A stretch of DNA of 64,000 nucleotides. Source: Olegusella massiliensis (GTDB lineage: Bacteria > Actinomycetota > Coriobacteriia > Coriobacteriales > Atopobiaceae). Positions 61,908 to 64,000 of the stretch are shown here, one piece after another (the first letter of the stretch is position 1; every line of letters starts with the position of its first letter). The stretch spans positions 744,001 to 808,000 of the forward strand of contig NZ_FLLS01000002.1 in the NCBI RefSeq assembly GCF_900078545.1, in the 5' to 3' direction. Position numbers and translations under genes: made by a program. The notes under the pieces were generated by a model. That model was not told the DNA's origin, did not search any database, and worked only from the letters and a program-made list of their open reading frames with translations.

Positions 61908-61997
61908 TGGCGGAGGGAGAGAGATTCGAACTCTCGGGACGCGAACGCGCCCGACGGTTTTCAAGACCGTTGCATTCAACCGCTCTGCCATCCCTCC
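61908..61997 (-). tRNA. tRNA-Ser (anticodon TGA)
   Basis: 90 nt with encoded CCA and a long variable arm. Acceptor GGAGGGA/TCCCTCC, anticodon stem ACGGT/ACCGT around CTTGAAA, anticodon TGA. Confidence 0.95.
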
Positions 61998-62135: not shown

Positions 62136-62597
62136 ATGAGCGAGATCGACGAATACTGGATGCACATTGCACTTGAAGAAGCTGCTGTGGCAGCAAAAGA
62201 AGGCGAGGTGCCTATCGGTGCCTGTCTCGTCGCAGATGGCAAGCTCATTTCACGCGCTCACAATCGCCGAGAGACAGATGCAGACCCTGCAGCACATGCA
62301 GAATTTCTTGCTATGGAAGAAGCGGCGCATAAACTTGGCTGTTGGCGTCTCACGGGTTGTACCGTCTATGTAACTTTAGAACCTTGTTTTATGTGTGCTG
62401 GTCTGATGATTAACGCTCGTATTGACCGTTGCGTCTATGGAGCTGTTGACCCCAAAGGCGGCGCCCTTGGCACGCTATACGATCTGAGTAATGATGCACG
62501 TCTCAATCATGCTTTTACTGTAACTGCTGGTATCTGCGCAGAAGAATCGGCACAGATACTCAGAAATTTTTTTCGAGACAGGCGAAAAAAGAACTAA
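62136..62597 (+). CDS. tadA: tRNA-specific adenosine deaminase TadA
   Basis: 153 residues; GTAGGAGC before the ATG. Zinc site complete: His54 and Glu56 in HAEF, Cys84 and Cys87 in PCFMC. It deaminates adenosine 34 to inosine in tRNA-Arg(ACG) so that one tRNA reads CGU, CGC and CGA; essential in most bacteria. The conserved NARIDRCVYGAVDPKGGALG block supports TadA over cytidine deaminases. Single gene between tRNA-Ser and the MgtE-like leader. Confidence 0.94.
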   Translation: MSEIDEYWMHIALEEAAVAAKEGEVPIGACLVADGKLISRAHNRRETDADPAAHAEFLAMEEAAHKLGCWRLTGCTVYVTLEPCFMCAGLMINARIDRCVYGAVDPKGGALGTLYDLSNDARLNHAFTVTAGICAEESAQILRNFFRDRRKKN

Positions 62598-62700: not shown

Positions 62701-62878
62701 TACAATATTTTATGGAAAGCAATTTGCGCCGTCGTGCGCACACATAGAAAGGCCATCGATGAAACCTCGACCTCACAGTCGATGACCCCAGGGTGTCCTT
62801 GCTGGTCACATCTTGGGGTGCCACTCGTCGGCAGCCGCAGCTGAGCTTTACTGCCCTAACCAGCCAAGGAGTCCCTTT
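62701..62878 (+). promoter_or_regulatory. Structured mRNA leader with possible SD-sequestering pseudoknot
   Basis: A TACAAT -10-like hexamer (62701-62706) starts a ~165-nt leader. Stems: TGCGC/GCGCA (62725/62736), CATCGA/TCGATG (62754/62779), ACCCCA/TGGGGT (62785/62814) and GGCAG/CTGCC (62830/62851). CCTTGCTGGT (62797-62806), inside the loop of the third stem, can pair over 10 bp with ACCAGCCAAGG (62859-62869, one bulged C). That last strand contains most of the ribosome site AAGGAG. Such an H-type pseudoknot is the layout of several translation-controlling riboswitches. It does not look like the M-box or yybP-ykoY types. Confidence 0.5.
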
Positions 62879-64000
62879 ATGATTTATCTCTCTCAAATGG
62901 TAGGAAACCCTGTATACGACCTCGAAGGTGAGCAGATTGGTCGAGTCAACGACCTTGGAATCGCTACGGGTGAGGTGTTTCCTCGCGTTACCAGCCTTGC
63001 AATCGTTGGACCAGGCAAAACGCCTTTCATGATTTCCTGGCGCAAGTATGTTGATACCTTTGATGAATCCGAAGTACGTCTGAGGGTTATCAAAACAGAT
63101 ATTCGTTTCTCGTATCTCCAGCCCAATGAGGTTCTTATTGCACGTGATCTCTTGGATAAACAAATTGTAGATACCCGCGGCATGCGTGTTGTTCGCGTCA
63201 ACGATCTTAAGTTTTCAGATACCAGCTCCTCCCAGCTACGGCTGCTGGGTGCTGAGGTAGGCGTGCGCGGTCTTTTGCGTACCCTCTCCCCTCACCTCGA
63301 GACTATAGCCCTTAAACTCGCAAAAACCTTTGGCAAGTCCTTACCCGAGCGTATCATCGCTTGGAACTACATGAACCTGCTTGACCGCGACTTATCGGAT
63401 GTAAAACTTTCGGTATCTCACAAGACGCTTGACGATATGCATCCCGCCGATATCGCAGACATTATCGAGCGTCTCGATCCACGCTTGCGTGGTCAAGTTT
63501 TTGCTCAGCTGGATGATGAGCAGGCCGCCGATGCAATGGCAGAAATTGATGAGGACAAGGCTGCTGAGATTATGGGGGACCTGGACGAACGTTCAGCATC
63601 TCGCATGCTATCCGAGATGGACCCTGATGACGCAGCTGAACTTGTAAGCGAACTTGATTACGATAAGGCAGAAAAACTTCTTGCCTTGATGGGCATCAAA
63701 GAACAAAAGGCGGTACGTCAGCTGTTGGGATATCGCGAGGATACCGCTGGACGTATCATGACCTCAGAGTTTCTCTCGCTGCCTGAGGATGCAACCGTTG
63801 CTGATGCAGTAGAGGCGATGCGCGGACTTGACGAGGACTTTGAAACCATTCGCTATCTTTATGTCGAGGATGAGGAAGGTTTGGTCACAGGCGCCATCTC
63901 GCTCAACGATCTCATTGTTGCAACAGAGGGTACTCATCTCAAAGATCTCGCTTCCGATGAGCTCATCACCGCCAACCCCGATGACGACCAGGAAGATGTT
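62879..64000 (+). CDS. PRC-barrel / MgtE-N / CBS protein, 3' end outside window
   Basis: 374 codons are visible with no stop. AAGGAG lies 7 bases before ATG 62879. Order: PRC barrel (about 1-75, YDLEGEQIGRVND), a second PRC-like segment (85-145), the helical MgtE N domain (about 185-290, HPADIADIIERLDP and repeats of DD-AA-x-x-x-x-L/M-x-E-[LM]D), then the start of a CBS domain (from about 293). MgtE magnesium channels carry the same N and CBS sensor domains before a membrane pore. Whether a pore follows cannot be seen; versions lacking it exist. A regulatory or transport role in magnesium homeostasis is inferred. Confidence 0.8.
   Translation, partial: MIYLSQMVGNPVYDLEGEQIGRVNDLGIATGEVFPRVTSLAIVGPGKTPFMISWRKYVDTFDESEVRLRVIKTDIRFSYLQPNEVLIARDLLDKQIVDTRGMRVVRVNDLKFSDTSSSQLRLLGAEVGVRGLLRTLSPHLETIALKLAKTFGKSLPERIIAWNYMNLLDRDLSDVKLSVSHKTLDDMHPADIADIIERLDPRLRGQVFAQLDDEQAADAMAEIDEDKAAEIMGDLDERSASRMLSEMDPDDAAELVSELDYDKAEKLLALMGIKEQKAVRQLLGYREDTAGRIMTSEFLSLPEDATVADAVEAMRGLDEDFETIRYLYVEDEEGLVTGAISLNDLIVATEGTHLKDLASDELITANPDDDQEDV

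Follow-up and report, generated by a model that had tools for sequence, protein, structure and literature searches.

The leader described here lies within a 64,000-nt stretch of the Olegusella massiliensis genome (the window), between a gene ending at 62597, which we take from its sequence to be deaminase-like, and a gene whose ATG start is at 62879 in the sequence and its list of open reading frames (Table 1). The product of the second gene resembles MgtE up to residue 524, with a TIGR00400 score of 217.5 bits that falls below the cut-off of 232.75. Its closest named relative is that of Atopobium sp. oral taxon 810 (98%). The next gene 3' of it encodes an NRAMP/NRMT transporter. The best solved relative of this transporter is 7qia, presumably EleNRMT, at an E value of 1.4e-135 versus 1.8e-23 for the next NRAMP, and by sequence the gene appears closer to EleNRMT than to other NRAMPs. 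EleNRMT is a Mg2+ transporter of Eggerthella lenta, according to the accessible part of its description (PMC8806188). The operon is predicted to code for a MgtE-like protein and an NRMT-type Mg2+ transporter. The NRMT neighbor is kept at 80 of 80 named loci of the window's family (Atopobiaceae) and in 40 of the 41 genomes from other families and orders, one of them with the locus divided between contigs; G141 has no NRMT.

Two side observations concern the genes themselves. In many of the f2 loci L075-L092, the match to the MgtE-like protein spans only about residues 1-415, so the membrane part appears to be absent, and the NRMT gene is still present; in these loci the soluble MgtE-like part may regulate NRMT. 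A contig titled Alloscardovia omnicolens DSM 21503 (L246, NZ_ATVB01000014.1) carries the operon, with 72% protein identity, among the Atopobiaceae relatives. Alloscardovia lies outside Atopobiaceae, and the assembly is possibly contaminated or mislabelled.

Table 1. Features in and around the leader, in window coordinates
Feature	Position	Strand	Description and basis
tRNA-Ser(TGA)	61908-61997	-	just upstream of the leader
-10-like hexamer TACAAT	62701..62706	+	conservation in family leaders
uORF Shine-Dalgarno (SD) AGAAAGG	62746..62752	+	sequence; similar sites ahead of relatives' uORFs
Helix P1	62751..62787	+	62751-62759 with 62779-62787; one C.A mismatch in the window
Putative uORF	62759..62785	+	ATG AAA CCT CGA CCT CAC AGT CGA TGA, MKPRPHSR-stop; comparison across leaders
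Hairpin P2	62786..62818	+	62786-62796 with 62808-62818, 11 bp; covariation, folding
Anti-RBS (P2 loop, P3 5' strand)	62797..62806	+	covariation; cognate versus swapped pairing
P3 3' strand and SD of the MgtE-like gene	62859..62871	+	P3 strand 62859-62869, SD AAGGAG 62866-62871; sequence, covariation
MgtE-like gene	62879..64000	+	PRC, MgtE_N, two CBS, membrane part; 611 aa, extends beyond the window end; Pfam and NCBIfam

The most conserved stretch of the leader among relatives is not the pseudoknot but a short upstream open reading frame (uORF) with its ribosome-binding site, AGAAAGG-(6 nt)-uORF, at 62746-62785. This frame was absent from the initial annotation, which had described four short stems and a pseudoknot over the ribosome site of the MgtE-like gene and had proposed a riboswitch. 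In 104 of 108 family leaders, the uORF is preceded, at a median distance of 57 nt, by a -10-like hexamer that is mostly TACAAT. TACAAT is found no more than 150 nt 5' of the uORF in 89 of the 108 and its reversed form in 4. A generic promoter scan called no promoter at 62701..62706, so the -10 assignment rests on conservation. The transcript would start at about 62713, and position 62701, given earlier as the beginning of the leader, is that of the -10-like box, not of the transcript.

Among 297 genomes of the order, 67 have the pattern ATGAARCCNCGNCCNNNNAGYCGNTRA, all within the window's family, with no match for the backwards control; every listed match that was compared with gene positions lies directly 5' of the mgtE-like gene. 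A scoring finder identified a uORF in 156 of the 166 leaders examined, made up of 108 of 111 from the family, 26 of 30 from the order's remaining families, and 22 of 25 from the remaining orders of the class. The corresponding control values were 2/111, 4/30, and 1/25 on the reverse strand and 84/2220 (family f1), 32/600, and 12/500 for shuffled sequences. A second finder, blind to AGT and ranking open reading frames by SD and P1 pairing, placed AGT two codons before the stop in 96/111, 19/30, and 22/25 of the same groups. The family leaders come from 111 of 121 matching genomes, the other 10 being fragments or remote paralogues from which no leader was taken; elsewhere, leaders were read in 30 of 48 matching genomes of the order and 25 of 31 of the class. 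Three family genomes (G010, G017, G030) have no uORF. The uORFs of G143, G191, and G346, longer or degenerate by eye, were scored as misses, and in G352 and G394 the start was placed one codon early in the rescored set.

Outside the family, the uORF starts with GTG or TTG, and the peptides read MKSKPRPHS(R/C), MKVRKPKPHS(S/N), MKPHSP, and MTPSSP; the common core is Pro-x-Ser-x-stop. A loose class-wide pattern for this core matched about as often as its reversed control and was uninformative. Outside the class, none of seven full-length homologue loci had a uORF by eye. The leader appears to have one element of a leader-peptide attenuator, a short frame with an SD and a conserved peptide. The drosocin-like sequence KPRPYS resembles this peptide but plays no part in the interpretation.

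All 108 family uORFs are eight codons long. Codon 3 is CCT in 78 and CCC in 27, with the remaining 3 being non-Pro; Pro5 is encoded by CCT, CCG, or CCA and Arg8 by CGA, CGC, or CGG, with 2 non-Arg at the latter; the residue at codon 6 is unconstrained; and the stop is TGA in 93, TAG in 9, and TAA in 6. With a single frame, a retained start and stop, synonymous changes, and stop exchanges, the conserved segment acts, on this comparative evidence, as coding sequence. Two codons are conserved beyond the residue they encode. Codon 4 is CGA in 108 of 108, with CGA making up 3.1% of Arg codons when the genes downstream are counted in 80 relatives. Codon 7 is AGT in all 100 Ser cases of the 108, with AGT making up 1.3% of Ser codons in the same background. 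The eight exceptions, all in genus g33 (G088, G091, G092, G094, G095, G105, G108, and G089), have CGT (7) or TGT (1), so GT is retained as Ser becomes Arg or Cys. Our preferred guess is that the fixed AGT reflects slow decoding of rare codons. A role as part of a helix was also considered: where P1 is long, the GT can base-pair with the start codon, but many genera have no such pairing, and such a role therefore fails to account for the constancy. The tRNA-Ser(TGA) gene just upstream of the leader should not decode AGT in the uORF.

Downstream of the uORF, hairpin P2 alone folds at -18.3 kcal/mol (z -3.3), with 0 of 200 shuffles as good. The folding of the whole leader is not unusual (z -1.07, equalled or bettered by 29 of 200 shuffles). 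P3 is formed by 62797-62806 (CCTTGCTGGT) and 62859-62869 (ACCAGCCAAGG), with 62859-62864 and 62866-62869 paired around a bulged C at 62865. Because its 5' strand is the loop of P2, the structure is an H-type pseudoknot, and the pairing extends into AAGGAG, the ribosome site for the start codon at 62879. In alignment A2, which comprises 23 of the 108 sequences picked for one form of P3, eight pairs change on both sides (6 of 11 in P2, 2 of 10 in P3), and 88.5% of cells are paired (0 of 500 shuffles; slid controls at most 4 pairs). Across 75 genera, the cognate duplex of loop and ribosome site averages -23.5 kcal/mol versus -19.0 when swapped and -16.2 when reversed (0 of 5000 permutations), a comparison inflated by shared base composition and, in some short leaders, by segment overlap. 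In many species of genus g33, a loop of GTGCTCC or GCGCTCC matches a ribosome site of GGAGCAC or GGAGCGC; several members are mismatched.

Helix P1 joins the SD region and start of the uORF with its last codon, its stop, and the following CC. On alignment A6 (35 f1 sequences, the 59 rows of A5 minus 24 with a differing SD-to-start spacing), it changes on both sides in 3 pairs and in 9 cells, with shuffles doing as well in 0 of 500 cases on cells and 124 of 500 on pairs; A2 alone has no covariation in P1. In the clearest compensation, GGGTC and a TGA stop are replaced by GGGCT and a TAG stop. P1 ranges from 3 to 12 bp across genera and is only 3-5 bp in some. It competes with P2, sharing 62786-62787 in the window and more nucleotides in other genera. 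The covariation thus points to mutually exclusive structures under a translating ribosome, as in a leader-peptide attenuator. In the window, P3 can still fold when P2 is absent, and the distance from the uORF stop to the anti-RBS is 11 nt, the extreme edge of a ribosome halted at the stop. Across the 75 genera, the mgtE start region has a predicted access of 0.38 with 4 nt past the stop withdrawn, which increases to 0.50 with 12 nt and then plateaus, a modest change from a nested folding model in which the pseudoknot is not represented.

These results bear out much of the structure in the initial annotation. The 10-bp pairing over AAGGAG is present and covaries in relatives, a pseudoknot that covers the ribosome site fits the translation-off architecture it had suggested, and the check it had proposed, covariation and presence in relatives, left the structure standing, with compensatory changes in P1, P2, and P3 alike. 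The P2 hairpin holds up, and the 5' stem near 62725-62740 does not, being common by eye only to the closest congener among the rows read.

A search of the window with Rfam 15 returned five tRNAs only, with no riboswitch above its gathering score. The best weak matches of the leader are to snoRNA and sRNA families far under the cut-off, and the M-box (RF00380) has no gathering-score match in the window or in G000. This agrees with the earlier view that the leader is unlike known riboswitch classes. The MgtE-N and CBS domains read by the initial annotation were found by Pfam, together with PRC, and its link to Mg2+ gains from the NRMT gene in the operon and from the M-box that precedes this gene in other orders. 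The proposal of a riboswitch proper found no support: in alignments A2-A5, no conserved unpaired nucleotides of a ligand-binding type are evident outside the uORF, where mainly the complementarity of loop and ribosome site is retained, and the conserved segment behaves as coding sequence.

Searches for the M-box gave matches in 2 of 40 relatives and in 23 genomes of a further set of 48, G154 belonging to both sets, and in none of the 25 family genomes searched. It lies just 5' of the mgtE-like gene in 19 of the 23 searched genomes that carry the full-length gene and belong to other orders, as well as in two genomes of the window's order (G153 and G147). Outside the class, 3 of 7 full-length homologue loci have it. 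The order in 21 M-box leaders is M-box, intrinsic-terminator-like hairpin (19 of 21), uORF, and gene, with 109-194 nt from the end of the M-box to the start of the uORF. These data therefore mark the gene as a Mg2+ gene and the uORF module as widespread in the class and independent of the M-box. In the other orders (L153-L174), two control layers stand in tandem within the same leader, the M-box with a terminator-like hairpin and then the uORF. In one f2 genome, the sole M-box found (L305, G227:C2:86700-89500) precedes a gene that by eye encodes an MgtA-like P-type ATPase, with a frame that appears split into two overlapping open reading frames.

Comparison across genomes supports a uORF conserved as coding, competing helices, pairing at the ribosome site, and an operon for Mg2+. 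Because a conserved uORF is followed by a pseudoknot hiding the ribosome site, Mg2+ uptake is probably switched by a ribosome on the uORF and not by a ligand-binding riboswitch. We give a probability of roughly two in three to the leader being a leader-peptide attenuator that controls a Mg2+ uptake operon at the level of translation. In such a scheme, a ribosome would read the eight-codon uORF. With no ribosome on the uORF, P1 would form, competing with P2 for nucleotides at the stop; with prompt completion of the uORF, P2 and P3 would form and mgtE-NRMT would be off. A ribosome at a stop codon covers about 10 nt beyond it. One lingering at the uORF end, on Pro-x-Ser(AGU)-x-stop with its rare codons, would cover about 8-12 nt beyond the stop, taking up the 5' side of P2 and in many cases some of the anti-RBS, and so allow the operon to be translated. 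As for the signal and the sign of the switch, we infer that the likely trigger would be low Mg2+, through slower translation and a weaker pseudoknot. Where an M-box is present, it alone could give Mg2+ control, and the uORF may therefore sense something else. A more far-reaching version can be offered only tentatively: a class-wide sensor of Mg2+, specific for peptide and codon, that would pause on Pro-x-Ser(AGU)-x-stop at low Mg2+ without drop-off at acidic residues, having been a second layer beneath the M-box in an ancestral leader, with the riboswitch wholly replaced in the window's family.

The same observations can be set against other explanations. A riboswitch proper, in which Mg2+ or a nucleotide would bind directly to the pseudoknot that hides the ribosome site and the uORF would be incidental, would suit a covarying H-type pseudoknot placed over that site, and Mg2+ generally stabilizes pseudoknots. 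We regard it as improbable, as few unpaired nucleotides of P2 and P3 are conserved apart from the ribosome-site complementarity, the strongest conservation is that of a frame with codon-type variation, and no Rfam riboswitch matches. Similarly poor odds attach to uORF traffic as such opening the leader, with ribosomes melting P1 and P2 and tying mgtE to translation in general, or to reinitiation, and no specific pause signal involved. The good SD and ATG of the family uORFs and their stop directly before P2 speak for such traffic; however, the 50-185 nt (median 91) from uORF stop to mgtE start in the family is long for reinitiation, and simple passage needs no fixed codons, yet CGA is found in 108 of 108 uORFs and AGT in 100 of 108.

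A uORF of the MgtL/MgtQ type, in which low Mg2+ destabilizes the ribosome within the uORF, would involve the same gene class and a similar uORF size, and the 8-aa mgtQ of Salmonella is described, in the text available, as freeing the mgtB ribosome site (PMC8092293). It is nonetheless the least probable of these explanations: the acidic residues that the available accounts give as required (Asp2 and Glu5; EPDP in MgtL, PMC11282234) are missing from MKPRPHSR and nearly all of its relatives. The peptide in the window has no acidic residue at all; the relatives whose uORFs have one are G047, G049, G142, G143, G151, and G253.

Mg2+-responsive leader peptides are known in enterobacteria, and the sequences suggest that the leader-peptide attenuator described here is probably a form of such control of Mg2+ transport unrelated to the enterobacterial ones. 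Searches of the open-access literature found nothing on this leader in the class Coriobacteriia and, in the portions of papers covered, no description of NRMT regulation. If the attenuator reading is true, an unrelated Mg2+ leader peptide stands ahead of NRMT across a whole actinobacterial class, including common gut and mouth genera. Leaders with an aptamer riboswitch and a uORF, together with those of the window's family in which the aptamer is absent, would form a natural series for learning how ribosomes report Mg2+. The invariant AGU and CGA codons pose a sharp puzzle that is open to testing.

Several known systems share features with this leader. TnaC has Pro as its last codon, as the uORFs of other orders often do, and it is longer than the uORF here, depends on Trp, and acts on transcription termination. 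The M-box (ykoK, RF00380) controls homologues of the mgtE-like gene and stands 5' of the same kind of uORF in other orders and in two families of the window's order, but it is absent from the window and the 25 family genomes, and the uORF element is a separate module 3' of the M-box and the terminator-like hairpin. The remaining comparisons draw on the accessible parts of the papers cited. TnaC termination arrest (PMC8429421) offers a parallel for a possible pause at the uORF stop. In the actinobacterium Mycobacterium tuberculosis, the pe20 M-box is likewise followed by a small conserved uORF (uORF2/Rv1805A), but there the uORF is translated under M-box control and its peptide is reported to be mycobacteria-specific (PMC12810186), whereas the uORF here sits 3' of a terminator-like hairpin and ahead of the transporter's ribosome site. 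MgtL of mgtA is also a proline-containing leader peptide that ties translation to expression of a Mg2+ importer, although it uses EPDP drop-off and Rho-dependent transcription termination (PMC11282234), in contrast to a leader with no EPDP and a pseudoknot at the ribosome site. In mgtQ of Salmonella mgtCBRU, an 8-residue uORF precedes a Mg2+ transporter gene, with alternative stems and release of a ribosome site at the level of translation; it differs in its place between two genes, in destabilization through Asp2 and Glu5, in having a stem-loop versus the pseudoknot here, and in an unrelated peptide (PMC8092293). Because its acidic residues are missing here, mgtQ is not of the same family, yet by analogy it is the system that appears to work most alike.
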